Origin: Leptospiraceae bacterium
GTDB lineage: Bacteria; Spirochaetota; Leptospiria; Leptospirales; Leptospiraceae
NCBI GenBank assembly: GCA_022402465.1
Contig: JAKRSH010000007.1
Span: forward strand, 248,001 to 312,000
DNA length: 64,000 bases
Direction: 5' to 3'
The first letter of the stretch is position 1; each line of letters opens with the position of its first letter. Below the pieces are notes generated by a model, which saw only the letters and a list, made by a program, of their open reading frames with translations, made no database searches and was not told the origin of the DNA. The position numbers were made by a program, and so were the translations under genes. Of this stretch, positions 29,585-39,743 are shown piece after piece.

Positions 29585-30643
29585 TTATTTAGCAGAAGCT
29601 AAACGAGATGCTCTATCCTCTTCTAATAATGCTTCGATAAGTTCATCCATATCACCTTCCATGATGGAACTTAAATTGTGACTTGTGAATCCTATCCTAT
29701 GATCTGTGCATCTTCCTTGTGGAAAATTGTAGGTTCTAATTCTTTCGGATCTATCGCCTGATCCTATCATTTGCTTTTTGATTGCATCACTCGATGCTTT
29801 TGCTTCTTGCATCTGTTGGTCTAAGATTCTAGCTCTAAGGATTCTCATTGCCTTATCGCGGTTCTTGATTTGAGATTTTTCGTCCTGACAACTAACAACA
29901 ATACCTGTAGGAATGTGTGTCAATCGAACAGCAGAGTCAGTTGTGTTTACGTGCTGTCCTCCCGACCCAGAAGAGCGGAACACATCAACTCTAATGTCAG
30001 ACTCTTTAATTTCAATTTCCTTTTCTTCCGCTTCTGGTAGAACTGCAACAGTTACAGCAGATGTGTGAATTCTTCCACCTGATTCCGTTGCAGGAATTCT
30101 CTGTACTCTATGCGTTCCACTTTCAAATTTGAAAATATCATAGGCTCTTTCATCTTCTATAGAAAATACAATTTCTTTAAAACCACCAATCCCTGTAGGA
30201 CTAGAATCTATCAACTCAGTTCTGAGACCACATTTGTCAGAATACTTGTTGTACATTCGAAAAAGATCTGCACAGAATAATCCTGATTCATCTCCCCCAG
30301 TGCCTGCTCTAATTTCTACTAGGATGTTTTTTCCAGAATTAGGATCGGGAGGAAGCATCATAACTTCTAACTCTTTAGAAAGAACCTCTAATTTCTTTTC
30401 CCCATCTTCAATCTCTGATTTAAGCATTTGGTGCATATCTTCATCTTTTTCATTTGGTAAAAGAGCTTTTGCATCGGAAATATCTTTGGAAATAGTAAGG
30501 TACTCTTGTGCTTTTGTATATACGGGCGTTAGTCGTGATCTTTCTTTATAAATTTCTTTTAGCTTGTTTGGATCACTGACTGAGGAAAGTTCATCATCCA
30601 GACGAAGGTATTTTTCTTGAATTTTTTTGAGTCTATCTACCAT
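29585..30643 (-). CDS. prfA: peptide chain release factor 1
   Basis: Terminates translation at UAA and UAG. It has the peptidyl-hydrolysis motif GGQ at 228-230 (SGSGGQHVN) and the stop-codon-reading tripeptide PAT in [10 protein letters not shown], which marks RF1 rather than RF2 (SPF). Other family blocks are [16 protein letters not shown] and [12 protein letters not shown] near the C-terminus. The 352-residue length is normal. The start ATG at 30643 gives the expected N-terminus, and it lies in the sequence CATG together with the likely start of the divergent EcsC-like gene. No prmC methylase gene follows; the next gene on the left is convergent. Confidence 0.96.
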
Positions 30644-31316
30644 GTATAAGGAAAGACTAGAAAGAGACCGTTTTTTGCAAAATCAAAATTCATCCATTAA
30701 TCTCCCTGAAAAATCCAATGAGTTGGATATTTTCCTCCAAAAGCTTGTAGAAATGCTCTCAGGCATCCAAGAATACAATAGCCCATATTCTAAAATTACA
30801 GAAAATCCTGAGCTAGTAGTAGATGAAATTATTAAGAATTGTGCATGGAAGGCTAGTACAATCAGTGCAACTTGTTCCTTACCAGGTGGTGTATTCGGTT
30901 TTTTTACCTTACTTCCTGAGTTGGTTATGATTTTTAGAATCCAAGGCATGATGATCAAAGATATAGCCAGTGTTTATGGTAAAGAAGCACAATTAAACCG
31001 AGAGCTTTTGCTTTTTTGTTTATTTAAACATGGAGGAGCTCATCTATTTCGTAAATTTATTGAAGAGACAGGGGTTAAAATTTTAATCCGACCAACAACA
31101 GTGCGTGCTTTCCAAGCCTTATTGCAAAAAGTTGGATTAGATATTTCAAAAAGAGTTCTTAGAAAAAATTTTACTCGTTGGGTTCCCTTTGCTGGTGCCG
31201 CTATAACAGGAACTTTTGCTTTTTTTGATACTAAGGCAGTTGGTAAGAATACCAAGGAAGTTTTTACAAAAGAAATTGAATTTCTAAATAGTAAAGAAGT
31301 CGCCATTGAAGAATAA
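30642..31316 (+). CDS. EcsC-like protein
   Basis: About 224 residues from the ATG at 30642. The central part, [18 protein letters not shown], then a helix with [19 protein letters not shown], resembles the EcsC family: a glycine-rich hydrophobic hairpin followed by a D/E-rich helical segment. A second Gly-rich hydrophobic stretch ([17 protein letters not shown]) near the C-terminus supports peripheral membrane association. EcsC is associated with an ABC transporter in Bacillus, but no transporter is adjacent here. The start lies in CATG shared with prfA, with no ribosome site, so an in-frame TTG 12 codons on is an alternative. It overlaps the next lipoprotein gene by 11 bases. Confidence 0.7.
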
Positions 31317-32445
31317 AATCCATTTCATTTTAATTTGTTTTTATATAATCGTAACCATTTTACTTTCTTTAAATTGTAGATCGAAGCATGAAACATTTCT
31401 TGAAGAAGTAAATCAATATCTCGAAGTTCAAAAGTTTGAAAAAGCTTTAACTATCATACAAGATAAACTTGAATCAAAACGAGATTCGGATGAGGTAATT
31501 TCTCGAACAAAACCCAAAAGAGAAAGAGTCATTAGAATGTCCGAAGATCGAAATAGGATAGTTTGGTCCGAAGATGAAAAATTAATTTTTCGAGACATAC
31601 CTAATCCTTTAGTTAAGACTAAAGCACTATCAGATCTTCCTTTCGATTTTAGAATTTCAACTAACGCAGAATATGCTTTAGTTTCCTTTCGATTGAAAAA
31701 TACCAAAGGTTGTAGAATGAAAGCGATATCTATGTTGAATGATGATTTGGATTATGACTCAGGTGCACACATAGCCTGTAGAAATTCAGGGAGTATTTCA
31801 AAAGATGGAAAGTATATCTATTATTTTATTGATGAAAGTTTATATAAAGAAAAAACAGAGTCACCACGCAAACCAACTAAGATTCTAGATGCTTCTAAGA
31901 TCTTACCTCCTTTTAGTAAGCTTAGAAATAAATACTCCCTTGTTCCTATTGAAGATAATTTCGTACTCATGACTGGAATAGCTGGTTCGTACAATATGTA
32001 CTATTTACAGACTAAATCAGATAATCTTGAACTAATTTCAAAAGATATTCTAAGTCCCAAATTATATTATGGAAATGGGACATCCATTTTTACTATTGGT
32101 GGAAAAATCGGAATTTGGTTTTTACGAGAAGTGGAATATGGTGTTGGGAAGAAACCAAAAATCAATAAAGGTTTTTCTATTACATTAAGAGAAATAGAAC
32201 CTTGGAAAACATCCAATAAAAAAGACTTTTTGTCATTCTACAATAGATCTATTTACAAATGGAGTCCAGGAACTAAAAAAGTAGAATACCCTATTCTCTG
32301 TGAGAGAGCATGGGGAGTTGCAAGAGATTATATAATCTATGAAAATAAAATAGGTGAACTTGTACTAGCTAATACTGCTTATTCTGAAGAAGATTGGGCA
32401 GTATTAGATTTATATAAAGAAGTAAAAAAACAAATAAAAGATTAA
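31306..32445 (+). CDS. lipoprotein of unknown function
   Basis: A 379-residue protein starting at a TTG inside the end of the EcsC-like gene. The N-terminus is a lipoprotein signal ending LLSLNC at residue 24. A short helix (FLEEVNQYLEVQKFEKAL), like a lone TPR-type pair, follows. The rest is made of short beta strands with patterns like DGKYIYYFIDESLYKEK and NNMY/YLQTKSDNL, suggesting a beta-propeller of sensor-like repeats, although no named repeat can be defined by eye. Its TAA is interlocked with that of the convergent four-Cys protein gene at 32442-32445. Confidence 0.65.
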   Translation: MKNKIHFILICFYIIVTILLSLNCRSKHETFLEEVNQYLEVQKFEKALTIIQDKLESKRDSDEVISRTKPKRERVIRMSEDRNRIVWSEDEKLIFRDIPNPLVKTKALSDLPFDFRISTNAEYALVSFRLKNTKGCRMKAISMLNDDLDYDSGAHIACRNSGSISKDGKYIYYFIDESLYKEKTESPRKPTKILDASKILPPFSKLRNKYSLVPIEDNFVLMTGIAGSYNMYYLQTKSDNLELISKDILSPKLYYGNGTSIFTIGGKIGIWFLREVEYGVGKKPKINKGFSITLREIEPWKTSNKKDFLSFYNRSIYKWSPGTKKVEYPILCERAWGVARDYIIYENKIGELVLANTAYSEEDWAVLDLYKEVKKQIKD

Positions 32446-32642
32446 GCTGCTTGGGATTTATCTTTTTGGGTTTCAAAAACCTTACAAGAGCTATATTTAT
32501 CTGCTAAACATTTCTTAGTTAATGTCTCAAAATCTGATTTCATTAAAACGGTTGAAGAACTCGGGCATTCATCCAACTTTTGTGTATAGAGGGGACAACG
32601 AATAAAAAATTCGTTTTTTCTTTCATCTTTCTTTTTGCCCAT
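32442..32642 (-). CDS. small four-cysteine protein
   Basis: A 66-residue soluble protein with no signal. Cys occur at 16, 26, 45 and 53, in the contexts RCPLY, ECPS, KKCLAD and SSCKVF. The spacing looks like a small metal- or iron-sulfur-binding unit, but I do not recognise a named family. It has basic termini. It lies 54 bases after the exported nitrilase-like gene on the same strand and is the last member of the rhomboid-to-nitrilase group. Whether it belongs to that transcription unit is uncertain because of the gap. The clear frame and paired Cys motifs support a real gene. Confidence 0.6.
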   Translation of the reverse strand: MGKKKDERKNEFFIRCPLYTQKLDECPSSSTVLMKSDFETLTKKCLADKYSSCKVFETQKDKSQAA

Positions 32643-32696
32643 GCGTTATATTCCGAAATAGTTTTTTAGTTTTGTCAATAGGTTTTCTGAAAAAAT

Positions 32697-33854
32697 TTAA
32701 AAATATAAATTCAATATTTTAGGAATTCTTTCATCTCTAGATAGAACAGGTTCGTTATTTTCTCGACTGGAGAAACTTTGGGGTATGTCTTTTATGTCCC
32801 AAATATTCCCATCCCAAAATACCTGCAAATATACTTTTGCATTGGTTCCGACTGATCTATCTTTTAAAGAATATCGGTGCCAAGTAACTGGTTCTTGAAG
32901 TTCTAAAAGTTTATTTGACTCATCTTGAATGCGACCCATATTTATGTTACTTGCAGGTGAGACTAATCCATCTACCTTAGATTTTGCGATTTGAGAGTAA
33001 ACAGAACTATAAAAAGAGTCTATACCAATCAATACTCCTACCTTCCAACCTGGCACTGCAATTATTAGATCTTGTTTTAATTCTCCTGGAGTTAAGAACT
33101 CTTTCTCCCAATTGCTAAGATTAATTTTTTTGATAATTTGATCAATGGCCTTTCCATTTGGCAGATAAGTTATGCTGACATTATAAAGTTTACTTTCTTT
33201 ATCTCCCGCAACTAGTTCTCCTTTCACAATTTTAGGCTCAGGAAGGATAACAGATCCTGCGATTATACTTACAGAATATTCTTTTGCTAATTCAGAAAAA
33301 GTTTCATTATAAATTTTAGCCACATCGTCTTTCTTTTCTCTAATGATAGTTTCCCATTCCAAGGAAGCTGCCGAACAATTTGTTGAATTACATTGCTTTT
33401 GAAATTCTTCAATTGCAAGCTTATGAGAAGACTTCAATTCAGTTAAGGCATTAGAATAAGAAGATGTATAGACAGACTTATTTTCTTTGAGTAGATATAG
33501 ACCAGTTCCAACATGTTCTGGCAATATAATCAATGTTTTTCGATCAATAAGGTTATCTGCTTTTGCTTTTTCAAAAATTGGTCTCAGACTATTCTTGAAA
33601 TTTTCTGCTGAATAAAAATCTAAGGGAAGGAAAAAGGGCTGAATTCCAATTAAATTGCCAAGTTTACGATCAGATCCGTTTAGCATGTATTCTATAGTCT
33701 TGAATCTTTCTTCAGATTCCGATTTATAATTTGAAAAATCTGCTTCTTGTAAAGCCGGATCAGAAGGTTTTAAAAATTGTTTTCCATAAAAAGGTAGAGA
33801 AAACAAAAAACAAAAAATTAAAATTCGTATCCAAGGAAAATATAAATTATGCAT
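32697..33854 (-). CDS. exported nitrilase-fold protein lacking the catalytic Cys
   Basis: A 385-residue protein with a signal peptide (residues about 8-25, [14 protein letters not shown]). The nitrilase/carbon-nitrogen hydrolase plan is visible: catalytic-type Glu113 in [10 protein letters not shown], Lys243 in [12 protein letters not shown], and the strand [13 protein letters not shown], where the family has Cys after VLI. Here that residue is Gly277, coded GGT, one base from the Cys codon TGT. N-terminal acyltransferase (Lnt) and amidase relatives need this Cys, so hydrolysis by the usual route is unlikely. It starts inside the Nudix gene with the 8-base overlap ATGCATAA. Either a structural or binding role or a divergent mechanism is possible. 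Confidence 0.7.
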
Positions 33855-34296
33855 ATTCTTTCAAATAGATTTGTACAGCTTCTAACATGTAATCTTCAAA
33901 AAATGATTCAGGCTGATAATTATGAATATCAACCCATTCCATAAAATCATGTTCATCAGAAAGTACTATCTCTCCACCTTTATAAATGCCTTTATAAGCT
34001 AAAATTATGCAAGGATGATTTCCTTCGGTAACTCTATGCTTATGAATGAGGAAGGGCTTTGGTTCAATTTCATATTGAAATTTATTTCCCATTTCTTCTT
34101 CCAACTCCCGTCTTACGGAAACTTGCCAATCATCAAAAAATTCCGTTTCATCCATTCGACCACCGGGAAGATCTCCAAAGCCAGATTTTCTATCTTTCAT
34201 GACAAGAAGTGAATTTCCTTTTCGAAGAAAAACTTTTTGAGTTATTTGAAAAAAACCGTGCTTAGACAATACTCTTTCCCCATTTATCAATCTCAT
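33847..34296 (-). CDS. Nudix hydrolase
   Basis: A 149-residue cytoplasmic enzyme. The Nudix box runs from GGRMDETE to RRELEEEMG, carrying the REL and EExG parts that bind the divalent cation. Between the first Glu and REL there are ten residues rather than the usual seven, a three-residue insertion. It probably cleaves a nucleoside diphosphate linked to some group X. The annotated ATG at 34296 overlaps the preceding gene by 35 bases. An in-frame TTG at 34269 with a purine-rich stretch ahead of it could be the true start. The end overlaps the nitrilase-like gene by 8 bases, so the enzymes are translated together. Confidence 0.82.
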
Positions 34297-36727
34297 GATC
34301 TACAGCATAAAGCTTTCCAACTGGCAGACTACCCGAGTTTGCTTGGTCTACCATCCCAAGGGATACTGAAAGTAAATCCGAAATAATAGTGTCCATAATC
34401 TCAGTAGGAGCTCCATAGTACAGAAAGTTCACAGGACTTAAATCGGAAAGCATGAAAACATTTCGTTCGATCGCTTTGCCGTCTTTTATAAATTTAAAAA
34501 TAGCAATTCCACCTTGGTCCATTTGTGACTGAGGATCAATGATTCTTCGCAATTCTACATTTACTTTGGTATCTTTGAATGAATCCAATTTGTTCAAGAG
34601 AAATTGATTCAACCAATCAATAAAATCACTAAACTCTGCTGTCTTAGTTGATCCAGATGCTAAATAGATATTCTTAGATTCACAATTATAAAGAAAATCA
34701 GACCAAAAATCAGGCTTTAGTATGGAATCCCCAATAACTCCTAAAAATAAATCTGTCTTCAATAAATTATCTCTGGGAACTTGGTTCACATTTGCAAATT
34801 TCCAAGGTTCAGGGGTTTCATTTTTAATATCAATTTCAATTAAGTGATCATTGGTATCATGCAATCTGCTTCCTTTTAGATATTTACATAAAAAGCTGCC
34901 AATATTACCAGAAGCACCTAATACAAGAAATTTTCTTCTTGAAAGAATCTTACCCTGTCCATGCAATACATCTTCTATAGCTTTTAGAATGGATTGAGCA
35001 ACTTCTTTAGATTCTTCTTTCACTTTTTGATTTGAAATTGCTATGGAATATGCTGGTAGAAATAATTTTCCTTTTTCTTTTTCAACAGAAAGCAATCGGT
35101 CGTAGCCGTTCCGTGTATGCTCTATTGTTCCTACTAAAACTTTTGCTAAAAGGTCACCAATTGGTAACTCAGCTAAGCTGCCTTCTAATTTCAATTGGTA
35201 TTCTTTTGCGACATCTTTTGTCAATTTACCTTCTATAGCAAATGCATTTAGGAAGGGAGCAATGTAGCCACCGTCCTCAACGAGAATTAGTTTTTCAGAA
35301 TTTTGATAAGAGTTAATGCATAATTTAAGAAATAAATGAGTAGCTAAAAGTTTCATGGCAGGGAAGAATCCCAGTTCTTCTCTATCCATGAATTCTTTTA
35401 AATCCAATAGATCAGAATTATCACTAAACAGAGGTGAGATGGAATAGTATGTTTTTCTTTCAGCACTTATTTTAAGTTCAAGTCCAGACATATAAAAGGA
35501 ATCTGTCGGAAGATCCAATAGGATATCTAAATATATAGGTGGTATCTTTCCTCCATATTTTACAAAGCAAACATTCACATAATCTGCTCCCAACATTCTG
35601 TACGCTTCGAGGAGAGCTAGTATTTCTGAGGTGATATGGTGTATGAGAAATATTTTGGTATTTTTAAAATTGAATTTATGATTGCTGTTGTTTGCTAAAA
35701 TCTCTAATTCAGGCATTCGAGTTAAATAATGACCCATTTGGAGAGAAATTCTTCTTTGATTGAATGAGTAATTTAAGACCCTATCTAATCTACTTAAATC
35801 AATATATACATCGATTTTACCATTTATGATATGAATCGTATAACCTTCTTTAACGATTTTAGTAATCTCTTGGTCTTCTAAAATTAGAAATATTTTTTTA
35901 AAAAGCGGAAGTGAGTTTTTGGGGTTAGAATCCATAAGAAAACTTGCAAAGGACTTCTCCCAATAGAAATTGATTTGATTTAGTTTTCCTAAAGATGTCT
36001 TTTCGATTTGCTCAAACACTTTACTAAATCTGCGATTTTCTTCTATATATTCCCTCTCACCTTTCTGGGATGAGCCTATTAAGGAACTATGAACTGATTC
36101 AGAAATTTTTGTGCTACCACCAATATAGATTCTAGAACTTAAATCATCAACGATCAAATGGTCTATTGATTTCAGATCTAGATTTGCTCTATCGAATCGC
36201 TCTATCGTTAGGCGAAAAATAAAATCTCCAGCCTCTACTTGATTGGGCACTCTTTCCAAGATGAATTGGTAATCTACATTTTCATTTTCACTATTGTGAT
36301 GAAAAGGAAACACCAAAGCTTTACTTGGATAGGTTCGTGGATTTTCTCCGTAAAATTCAGGATGTATGACTTTTGCCCAAGCTTGTCTTTGAAATGTGCC
36401 AAATACAGTTCTTAAGTGATCTTGGAATTCTTCTCGGAAAATGAGAATATCTTTTAAAACTCCTGCTCGTGCATGAATTTGAATATAACCAATATGCATT
36501 TCACAAAGTTCACTATTAATATTTGGATTGAGTTTGTAGAGGATTGCAATGTCGCCAGGAGAAGTTATAACTCTTTCTACGATTTCGTCACCAAGTGTTC
36601 TTGAAAGAATAGAAAGTCCCCAGAAAATTCGTAAATTTGTAAGATCAATTTTATAAATGTCAGAACTTTCCTTTTCTAAATTTACTCCTAGAGATGTAGG
36701 TATATTTTCATCTGGATGTTTATGCAT
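34262..36727 (-). CDS. 821-residue protein with S-adenosylhomocysteine-hydrolase-like half
   Basis: Residues about 1-350 are not recognised (mixed, with RHH-free hydrophilic stretches and a Leu-rich end). At about 360-390, [27 protein letters not shown] resembles the SAHH opening (LH-x-T-x2-T-x-L...L-x2-GA-x-V). [13 protein letters not shown] resembles the SAHH DDGGD region, and at about 596 a Rossmann start [15 protein letters not shown] is followed by [21 protein letters not shown] and [16 protein letters not shown], matching the NAD-binding part in order. True SAHH is about 430-470 residues with strictly conserved catalytic Asp, His and Lys, which I cannot place here. The gene overlaps both neighbours, so it is part of one operon. 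Function unknown, perhaps an NAD-dependent epimerase or hydrolase. Confidence 0.6.
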
Positions 36728-38207
36728 GTTGCACCATTACTTTTACCGCGTCTGTAGTCTTTGCTGTTGCAAATGCATTTCTTAATTCTTTAGCATCAAA
36801 AGTGTGAGAAATCATATTATCGGCTAAGGATTTTGCTACTGTTGGATTCTCTTTCAAAAGCTTTATAGCAAGATGAAAGTCCCCACATCTAGAAGTACGT
36901 ATTGATTTGCCTCTTAGGAAAAAATCATTCATCGCATAATATTCCTTATCCGAAGATTCCAGATTTAATTCTTGGGGTAGGTAAAGAATTGCACCTCTGG
37001 GTCTAACTAAAGAATCTTCCTTTCCTTGAATGGGTCGAATACAGGAATCAATTTCTTCTAATTTAGTAGCTATTGCAATATCAAATCGAGGAAATTTTCC
37101 TTCCTTATCAAGGTCATCTAATTTGGTGTGAGCTTCTTCAAATGATGATAAAGTTAAACTTACTTCCCCAAACTGTGAAAGTTCATTGCGTATAATTGAA
37201 ATCCAACGTACCATGTCTTCTTTTGGAATTTCTTGGAAACTGGGGCAGAGGAAGATATTTAAATTTTCTCTTTTTTCTTTGGCCCAATGGAAATGAAGAT
37301 TCTCAATCGAAAAAGGAAGAATAGAAAGTTCATCAACTACCAATTCCGTTAGATGGCTAAGACCTCCCATTTTTTGACCATTCGTTGTTTTGAGATGTAA
37401 TTCTCTTTTGGCTAGACGAATAGCAGACTGAAAACCATCTGTTGTACTCGTAGTATCATACAATATATCAAAATGATTTTCTAAAGAATCAATTGTATGT
37501 GAATCCGAAATATTTATGCCATCATCAGCACCTAGTCGAATTGCTAGATCTAGCAACTTTTGGCGTCTAGCGAGAGCAACAATTTTGAAATTTTTCTTTG
37601 AATCCAATCGATAAGCTTGCAGGGCTGCAATGACAAGAGAACCTAATCTACGTGGACCAAGTACAGCAACAACATCTCCATCTTCAGGGGCTGATGCGAT
37701 TACAGCTTGGAGAGAAGCGGCAAATGGTTCTATCAATACTGCTGCTTTCTCATCTAAATTACTATAGGGAATAGCAGCATGTACGGGGGCAAGAATATAA
37801 GCCCCAAATCCACCAGGAAGGCGATCAATACCTAGAACCTTTCTTTCTGGAGAATGGCTTGCAATTCCTTCTCTTACAAAAGAGTCAACATCAGAATCTC
37901 CCCTAGCTTCGAATGTATCATTTATTTCTACTACATAATTCTGGTGAGTATCAGGATCTTCAGCAATCACTTCGTGACCAATTACTTGGGGAAGTGGAAA
38001 TGGAAGAAACCTTCTATCTATATCCGTTGAACAAACTCCACAAGATTTTGTTTTGAGAAGTCGGTAACCTTTGCCTAACTCAAGGTAAGGAGAACCATTT
38101 CGGATGATCTTCCAACCTTGTTTTTCATCACCTTTATAAATATAGTCTGATTCAATAAAGGTATCATCAGAAGTGTAATCTAGTGCCTTGAAATGGATTT
38201 CTTTCAT
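36720..38207 (-). CDS. medium-chain dehydrogenase/reductase-like protein
   Basis: A 495-residue protein. The zinc-type catalytic motif is present as CGVCSTD (Cys56, Cys59) and GHEV (His78, Glu79), with VLIEPFAAS for the third position. The Rossmann motif VVAVLGPRRLGSLVIAA follows. The structural-zinc loop with four Cys, standard in alcohol dehydrogenases, is absent: after GHE the chain goes straight through acidic stretches. An extra C-terminal part of about 120 residues makes it longer than the usual 340-380. It probably oxidises or reduces a polar alcohol with NAD(P). The overlap with rhomboid (ATGA) and with the 821-residue gene (ATGCATAA) puts it in the same operon. Confidence 0.75.
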   Translation of the reverse strand: MKEIHFKALDYTSDDTFIESDYIYKGDEKQGWKIIRNGSPYLELGKGYRLLKTKSCGVCSTDIDRRFLPFPLPQVIGHEVIAEDPDTHQNYVVEINDTFEARGDSDVDSFVREGIASHSPERKVLGIDRLPGGFGAYILAPVHAAIPYSNLDEKAAVLIEPFAASLQAVIASAPEDGDVVAVLGPRRLGSLVIAALQAYRLDSKKNFKIVALARRQKLLDLAIRLGADDGINISDSHTIDSLENHFDILYDTTSTTDGFQSAIRLAKRELHLKTTNGQKMGGLSHLTELVVDELSILPFSIENLHFHWAKEKRENLNIFLCPSFQEIPKEDMVRWISIIRNELSQFGEVSLTLSSFEEAHTKLDDLDKEGKFPRFDIAIATKLEEIDSCIRPIQGKEDSLVRPRGAILYLPQELNLESSDKEYYAMNDFFLRGKSIRTSRCGDFHLAIKLLKENPTVAKSLADNMISHTFDAKELRNAFATAKTTDAVKVMVQHA

Positions 38208-38875
38208 TTATATCTTGCCTCAATAAAGTAATACAGAACTAAAGTCAATGTAAAGAAAATAAGATTTAGTATAAACCCATTCTTCAATTTTTTTCGATCT
38301 TTTTCCTCTAGAAAATATGCAGTAATAATAACAGAAAAGAAACCACCTAAGTGTGCCCAATGTGCAATTTGGTCTTTTTCAAAAACATTGGTAATGTCTG
38401 TATAAACTGAGGCCCAGGCAATTAAAAATAATGGAAAAGGAAAATTCACTCCGCCCATACGAATCGAAAAAGGGGATAGTAGGGCTGAGGCAGCTGCAAG
38501 TCCAGAGATAGCCCCACTTGCTCCAAGAACTGGTGTATTGTCCCCTATAATAAATCCTCTTACAATAGAATCTCCAATTGCCGATACGATTGCTGCCATT
38601 CCGTAGAATAACATCCATTTGCTCATGCCAACCTTATACTCAACAGCCCTTCCTAGTATAAACAAAAACATAAGATTAGAAAACAAATGACTGAAACTAC
38701 CATGAGCAAAACTTGAAAGTATCCAATTGATAGGATTCCATTCCCTAGGATAAGACAAGAAAAAGTTCTGAATAATAGGATCTGGAATAAAAAAAATGGA
38801 GATAAAAAAGAATAAGAATAAAAATACAATCAAACCTGCGGTCAATGGGAATTCCCAAAAAATTTTCTGAACCAT
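38204..38875 (-). CDS. rhomboid-family intramembrane serine protease
   Basis: A 223-residue polytopic membrane protein with about six hydrophobic segments. The catalytic dyad is visible as the Ser in LGASGAISG (GxSG) and the His in HWAHLGG. The oxyanion-region His and Asn come in SHLFSNLMFL. The Trp/Arg-type loop GRAVEY is also family-like. Rhomboids cut transmembrane segments of substrate proteins. Which substrate is cut here is unknown, but the exported nitrilase-like protein and other membrane proteins of the operon are natural suspects. Its ATG (38875) begins the tightly overlapped five-gene run; its TGA overlaps the next ATG. Confidence 0.9.
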   Translation of the reverse strand: MVQKIFWEFPLTAGLIVFLFLFFFISIFFIPDPIIQNFFLSYPREWNPINWILSSFAHGSFSHLFSNLMFLFILGRAVEYKVGMSKWMLFYGMAAIVSAIGDSIVRGFIIGDNTPVLGASGAISGLAAASALLSPFSIRMGGVNFPFPLFLIAWASVYTDITNVFEKDQIAHWAHLGGFFSVIITAYFLEEKDRKKLKNGFILNLIFFTLTLVLYYFIEARYK

Positions 38876-38906: not shown

Positions 38907-39743
38907 TCAATTCGATTTTGGGGAAAAAGCTGGAACTTCAGGAGAATCTTCATTTCGAAAATATGCATCGTCCACTCCATCTATTCCTGTAGAGAGCTCT
39001 TGTAATTTCGGTTCATTCCAAATAGTTTCGAAAGCGTCTTCTGAATCATATACCTTAAAATTACTATCGTAATGACAGCGAGTATAGTAATCTGAATTCT
39101 TAGGAATGACTCTTTGTATTTCCAATTTTATAACATCGAAATTATTTTCCAATTCTTCTTCTGAATCATATTCTCCCTCATGGAGAAGTGCAAGTAGAAC
39201 TACATACTTTTGGGCTTGTTTAACAGACTGAAGTGCATAAGAAAGATCTCGGATCTTATTAATATAGATCTGCGGATGTGAATTTCTAGCTGTAAGTACT
39301 TTTTTCTTTGCAACAGCAATTTCCCGAAAACCCATAGAAAGATAATGATGTGTATTTGTTTTCTCAAGTCGATTCGAGATTCGAGTTAAACGGATCAAAT
39401 CTTTTTCTGTTCGCTCGATATTTGATTCAACTACTTTGAGAAATAATTGAATCATAATTTTTTGGGTTCTTCGTAATTCATCAAAACCCTTACCAAGATC
39501 CATTTGCAATTGAAGCAATTCAGTTTCTATATGATGCTGCAATGCTCGTCTAAATAAAACTTTTTCTGTATCAGATCCAAAATTAGAAACGGATGGACTA
39601 ATAGATTTTAAATGATCATAATTCTCTTTCATACCTATAGTAACTTTAATTAGTTGAGTAGATTTATTCGATTGATTCGAATATGATAAAGTCCAACTAA
39701 AACAAAGTAAGATCAAGAAGAAGAATAACCTTTGAGAACTCAT
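38907..39743 (-). CDS. exported helical protein of unknown function
   Basis: A 278-residue protein with a signal peptide (residues 1-21, LFFFLILLCFSWTLSYS). The mature part is highly helical, with heptad-like Leu/Ile spacing in segments such as LLQLQMDLGKGFDELRRT and VESNIERTEKDLIRLTRI, and an acidic stretch (EGEYDSEEELENN). The C-terminus is acidic and rich in Ser and Pro. It has no motif I can name. A 30-base gap separates its start region from the rhomboid-led operon, which lies downstream on the same strand, so they may be one transcript. Divergent from the 39880 gene. Confidence 0.6.
   Translation of the reverse strand: MSSQRLFFFLILLCFSWTLSYSNQSNKSTQLIKVTIGMKENYDHLKSISPSVSNFGSDTEKVLFRRALQHHIETELLQLQMDLGKGFDELRRTQKIMIQLFLKVVESNIERTEKDLIRLTRISNRLEKTNTHHYLSMGFREIAVAKKKVLTARNSHPQIYINKIRDLSYALQSVKQAQKYVVLLALLHEGEYDSEEELENNFDVIKLEIQRVIPKNSDYYTRCHYDSNFKVYDSEDAFETIWNEPKLQELSTGIDGVDDAYFRNEDSPEVPAFSPKSN

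Follow-up and report, generated by a model that had tools for sequence, protein, structure and literature searches.

The window analysed here, a 64,000-nucleotide stretch of a Leptospiraceae genome, carries six minus-strand genes in close succession. The first encodes a rhomboid-family intramembrane serine protease (223 aa, 38204–38875), followed by a zinc-dependent medium-chain dehydrogenase in its long form (ADH, 495 aa, 36720–38207), a giant protein consisting of an N-terminal domain of unknown fold and an SAHH-like C-terminal half (the giant, 821 aa, 34262–36727), a Nudix hydrolase (149 aa as listed, 33847–34296), a nitrilase-like protein with a hydrophobic N-terminus and a replaced catalytic Cys (385 aa, 32697–33854), and a small four-Cys protein (66 aa, 32442–32642). 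The initial annotation described the first five genes as overlapping at 38204, 36720, 34262 and 33847, and all of these ORFs were found at those places. The overlaps are 4 bp between rhomboid and ADH (38204–38207), 8 bp between ADH and giant (36720–36727), 35 bp between giant and Nudix with the Nudix start as listed (34262–34296), and 8 bp between Nudix and the nitrilase-like gene (33847–33854). The small four-Cys gene said to follow the five is present, but it is separated from the nitrilase-like gene by 54 bp, with no overlap.

The true start of the Nudix gene is probably the TTG at 34269, because its relatives begin there, at M-S-K/D-H-G, and the SD-like sequence GGGGAAAGAG lies just upstream. 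With this start, the giant and Nudix genes overlap by 8 bp, so that all four junctions are 4 or 8 bp long. Because the gene order is kept in other genera, the clustering is more than chance, and the six-gene arrangement is, judged from the sequence, a real compact operon. The minus-strand transcript may begin further upstream, with the gene for an OmpL37-family surface protein (38907–39743, minus strand, NCBIfam E 1.5e-66) as its first member, because this gene ends just 31 bp before rhomboid. The OmpL37-family gene is not conserved at that place in relatives, several of which carry a DinB-like gene there. Promoter and terminator scans gave signals no better than those of shuffled sequences. 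A transcript map has been published for Leptospira interrogans (PMC5243855). On the plus strand, an EcsC-like gene and an unknown 379-aa gene (30627–32445) are convergent with the operon, and the same gene pair is present in locus L030 (14049–15820), about 3.5 kb past the last gene of the operon.

Assignment of the first gene product as a putative rhomboid protease is supported by the Pfam Rhomboid match (E 1.4e-21) and by retention of Ser120 in the GASG motif and of His172, both of which, together with H58, H63 and N67, are invariant in 5 sequences; the nearest solved relative is GlpG. The candidate Nudix hydrolase scores above the Pfam NUDIX cut-off (E 3.3e-6) and keeps its catalytic residues, with R63-E64..E67-E68 invariant. 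The key residues of the Nudix box GX5EX7REUXEEXGU are present, with a loop of 10 residues instead of 7, and the 3-residue gap is visible in the comparison with the nearest solved relative, 3grn. The nitrilase-like protein remains below the Pfam CN_hydrolase cut-off (E 1.1e-4; 22.0 bits, cut-off 23.2). Compared with the genome's own CN hydrolase (L124), the Cys of the ICYD motif is replaced by Gly, and by Ser or Thr in relatives. Glu113 is kept, and the nearby Lys is kept in most relatives, but the Glu-Lys-Cys triad is incomplete. Because the nucleophile Cys is replaced, the protein should be inactive as an amidase and, given its hydrophobic N-terminus, probably is the exported protein with a dead active site that had been proposed. 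The four Cys residues of the small protein (C16, C26, C45 and C53) are invariant in 4 sequences.

The ADH gave NCBIfam matches of the idonate/threonine dehydrogenase type, with scores far below every equivalog cut-off. Its zinc ligands (C59, H78, E79 and E160) are invariant in 10 sequences comprising long and short forms, and the RPRG and SRCG motifs and Rossmann-loop glycines are likewise invariant in both forms. For the short form, the best solved relative is RspB (4ilk).

The first 344 residues of the giant (35696–36727, minus strand) were predicted by AF2 with a pLDDT of 93.6 and a pTM of 0.87. The model gave no PDB fold match at E ≤ 0.001, and profile searches gave no credible match and none in Pfam. 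Scattered weak fold matches, many of them to pol-beta-type nucleotidyltransferases (TM ~0.12), were not accepted as homology. The most conserved residues of the domain include Q113, E158, R172 and W256.

The SAHH-like label given to the giant in the initial annotation falls below every sequence-family cut-off, with an E of 0.28 and 10.7 bits against Pfam AdoHcyase (cut-off 25) and no match in NCBIfam, but it is borne out by structure and profile comparison. An AF2 model of the giant, built from 16 sequences (pLDDT 85.8), matched SAHH structures in Foldseek (E 4e-14, TM by target 0.52–0.65). Alignment by hhalign of a 47-sequence profile (giants plus their short relatives) with canonical SAHHs covered profile columns 324–811 (E 5.7e-6, probability 85.5). 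Weak PDB sequence matches of the giant to epimerases and a tautomerase were set aside as Rossmann or chance matches.

An ordinary canonical SAHH (439 aa) is encoded elsewhere in the same genome, which rules out the giant as a stand-in for a missing SAHH, and the residues of the giant were mapped onto this protein. In this mapping, H364 corresponds to H61, D485 to D139, E536/H537 to E163/E164, and K568 to K194. The catalytic lysine K568 and the NAD glycine loop (G604/G607/G610) are thus kept, while the catalytic Glu of SAHH (E164) is His (H537) in the giant. E572 lies near D198 of SAHH, and the two align as an Asp to Glu exchange only without the one-residue gap. The HFD motif of SAHH is S693-T694-K695 (STK) in the giant by motif position, at a place where the hhalign alignment is gapped. 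The adenine-site GHPSFVM motif is YGxPTE at the aligned place, and the KPxHYRY motif of the SAHH C-terminus is missing. We take the equivalent residues of human SAHH to be K186 for the lysine, E156 for the Glu, D190 for the Asp and H301 for HFD. K568, H364, D485, G604, G607 and D633 are invariant in giants across phyla, and G610 nearly so; among the 47 sequences from many phyla, 34 columns are invariant, and these concentrate at the SAHH-site motifs, the lysine among them. With an altered substrate pocket despite its conserved fold, NAD loop and lysine, the giant is SAHH-like rather than an SAHH. Because the substrate residues and one catalytic Glu are replaced, its site may not carry out SAHH chemistry. 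The suggestion that the operon encodes two probable oxidoreductases is consistent with these comparisons, in which both ADH and the giant appear as NAD-type enzymes.

Gene order was compared in eight Leptospiraceae genomes, with the source genus represented by one genome. The order rhomboid-ADH-giant-Nudix-nitrilase-like is kept wherever contigs allow, with the exception of G004. Rhomboid and ADH are linked in 7 of the eight genomes, ADH and giant on every contig holding both, and Nudix and nitrilase-like genes come next wherever the contig continues, again except in G004; the small four-Cys gene is present in 5 of the eight. In G004 (four contigs), ADH and giant lie together on contig C1 and the rhomboid ortholog (57% identity) on contig C2, and no Nudix, nitrilase-like or small four-Cys gene was found. 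Comparison with relatives thus upheld the order across genera, but G004 divides the core pair from the accessories, and outside Leptospiraceae ADH and giant alone of the six genes recur. The supposition that the six genes form one functional unit is consequently not supported. Because in G004 only ADH and giant stay side by side, the core is this pair, and the rhomboid, Nudix, nitrilase-like and four-Cys genes are local, lineage-specific Leptospiraceae accessories in the same cluster.

To investigate the occurrence of the pair in bacteria, a giant profile was searched against one genome per species, giving 73 loci, most of them from MAGs; a single giant sequence used as query against the genome contigs found nothing. 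Giant loci are present in Planctomycetota, Desulfobacterota, Acidobacteria, Elusimicrobia, Verrucomicrobia, Lentisphaerae, Bipolaricaulota and others. In 37 of the 62 loci with enough upstream sequence, the giant is preceded by a same-strand ADH (25 long and 12 short forms); these loci belong to Spirochaetota, Planctomycetota, Desulfobacterota and Bipolaricaulota. One of the short-form loci, L095, has the ADH 2 kb from the giant, with two genes between. The other 25 loci lack an ADH immediately upstream, and 23 of them showed none anywhere in the stretch retrieved. One planctomycete encodes an in-frame ADH-giant fusion of 1285 aa. In Planctomycetota, only close relatives share operon mates besides ADH. 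On a contig labelled Desulfobacteraceae (L046, 492–6390), a giant with 45% identity to the Leptospira giant, flanked by genes for a YfhO-like membrane protein and a glycosyltransferase, occurs without ADH, through either transfer or mis-binning.

Tree distances of ADH and giant are correlated (r 0.97, 25 long forms), and 21 of 36 splits are common to the two trees (39 pairs), an agreement partly due to shared descent alone. Among 393 spirochaete genomes, searched phylum-wide for the giant with one query sequence, ADH is present in 16 of the 17 with a giant versus 7 of the 376 without (Fisher 4e-22, uncorrected for kinship). The sole giant carrier without ADH, G199, is an 81% complete genome. 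Phylogenetic profiling among the spirochaetes, as advocated, thus reveals co-occurrence of the ADH-giant pair. In a sister family, ADH and giant are unlinked, and ADH is present in 7 of 8 giant carriers versus 2 of 14 other genomes. In the sister-family loci examined, the ADH lies behind glycine-cleavage genes (gcvT-gcvP). A conserved 93–96 aa protein without Pfam or NCBIfam match is encoded between these genes and ADH (L130 8805–9086, L131 9046–9327, L134–L137). Neighbouring PrmA and M50B/epimerase genes in this family probably reflect vertical synteny and were rejected as functional partners.

The pair is conserved, with an SAHH fold and with its zinc-ligand and NAD/lysine residues kept, and its recurrence in several distant phyla makes it probably an undescribed metabolic step. 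We see an even chance that ADH and giant are a functional core whose two enzymes most likely act in turn on one small metabolite in an NAD-dependent step. ADH would first oxidise (or reduce) a secondary alcohol. The giant, with a tightly held NAD in its SAHH-type site, would then take the ADH product through a cycle of oxidation, elimination or addition, and reduction, and its N-terminal domain would serve as a second site for binding or catalysis. ADH can occur alone and the giant almost never does, which suggests that ADH makes the substrate of the giant and may act before it; the occurrence of ADH without the giant also means that ADH has other uses. The substrate would perhaps be a nucleoside- or polyol-like metabolite. 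A purine nucleoside phosphorylase gene stands directly ahead of the short ADH in two small (1.2 Mb), giant-less spirochaete genomes (L132 5967–7753; L133 4355–6131), and inositol-phosphate synthase is encoded upstream in one giant locus and galactokinase in one other, a polyol hint. Few loci provide these hints, and in the sister family ADH lies behind glycine-cleavage genes instead. We infer that both enzymes are active, as well as their order of action and the substrate class. Only tentatively do we propose that the pair is a widespread undescribed NAD-dependent step in which SAHH-type chemistry is applied to a non-SAH substrate, with the new N-terminal fold as a second catalytic or carrier site.

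A second cassette, found in about 20 loci (L062 1051–4000, also L069, L070, L081, L088, L104 and others) of Desulfobacterota and other phyla, has genes for a MinD/ParA-like ATPase bearing the motif FRGGTGKSN and an ECF-S-like/HAMP membrane protein ahead of the giant, often with a short ADH and sometimes with a cupin alongside. We know of no described system of this kind. Its signalling-like composition would suit a giant that is an NAD-binding regulator, sensing NAD(H) or a metabolite and controlling ADH or membrane proteins, in the manner of mammalian AHCYL1/IRBIT, which are SAHH-like regulators with an SAHH fold and an added N-terminal part. The replacement of several SAHH catalytic and substrate residues and the large extra N-terminal domain point the same way. 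However, the invariant columns at the SAHH-site motifs, lysine included, exceed what a regulator would need, and the partner ADH keeps all its zinc ligands, so we regard this role as unlikely.

It is quite improbable that all six genes constitute one Leptospira envelope pathway, making or releasing an envelope-attached small molecule, as first suggested. The overlapping genes, their order in other genera, the membrane and probably exported products, and the joint absence of the Nudix, nitrilase-like and small genes from G004 agree with such a pathway, but G004 keeps ADH and giant without these three and with rhomboid elsewhere, relatives in other phyla have only the pair, and the operon contains no envelope-building enzyme. 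More improbable still is that the pair is conserved because two separate housekeeping reactions are regulated together, with ADH in amino-acid or one-carbon metabolism and the giant in another, since the lone ADH behind gcvT-gcvP in the sister family, and beside a nucleoside phosphorylase in another family, is outweighed by direct adjacency, the fusion, tree agreement and unlinked co-occurrence.

The preferred reading, a two-enzyme step by ADH and giant, concerns a protein family (~820 residues) named in neither Pfam nor NCBIfam, present in many phyla and tied to one dehydrogenase. One half of the protein has an unknown fold, the other a well-known enzyme fold with an altered site. Its links to ADH by adjacency, one fusion, tree agreement and co-occurrence single it out as a concrete gap in bacterial metabolism that can be tested. 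If the giant works on a non-SAH substrate, this would broaden the use of a fold long linked with a single reaction. The initial annotation knew of no described pathway of this composition, and none was found in the open PMC literature, nor any description of an ADH-giant system.

Comparison with known systems shows that ADH shares the catalytic zinc ligands and the Rossmann domain with zinc polyol/threonine dehydrogenases (RspB, Tdh, L-idonate 5-dehydrogenase), but its long form lacks their Cys lobe for structural zinc and carries a ~110-aa insert. The giant resembles SAHH in the fold of its C-terminal half, the NAD-binding Rossmann loop, the lysine, and the DG and H-x-T positions, and differs from it by the extra 340-residue N-terminal domain. 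Short SAHH-like relatives in gut-type Firmicutes and Bacteroidota (L108 5139–9584; L111 4696–7362; L112 1100–3706; L113 511–3000) share the SAHH-like core of the giant with its SGSTKT, EDGGY and RNGYD motifs, but have neither the giant N-terminal domain nor an ADH. Instead, an ATC_hydrolase-like partner of ~165–183 aa comes next or, in L113, is fused to the short protein, and in L108 the SAHH-like gene is present twice, nearly in tandem. Like the giant, AHCYL1/IRBIT combine an SAHH fold with an N-terminal extension, but the extension of the giant is a folded domain by prediction, and the gene is partnered with that of a dehydrogenase.
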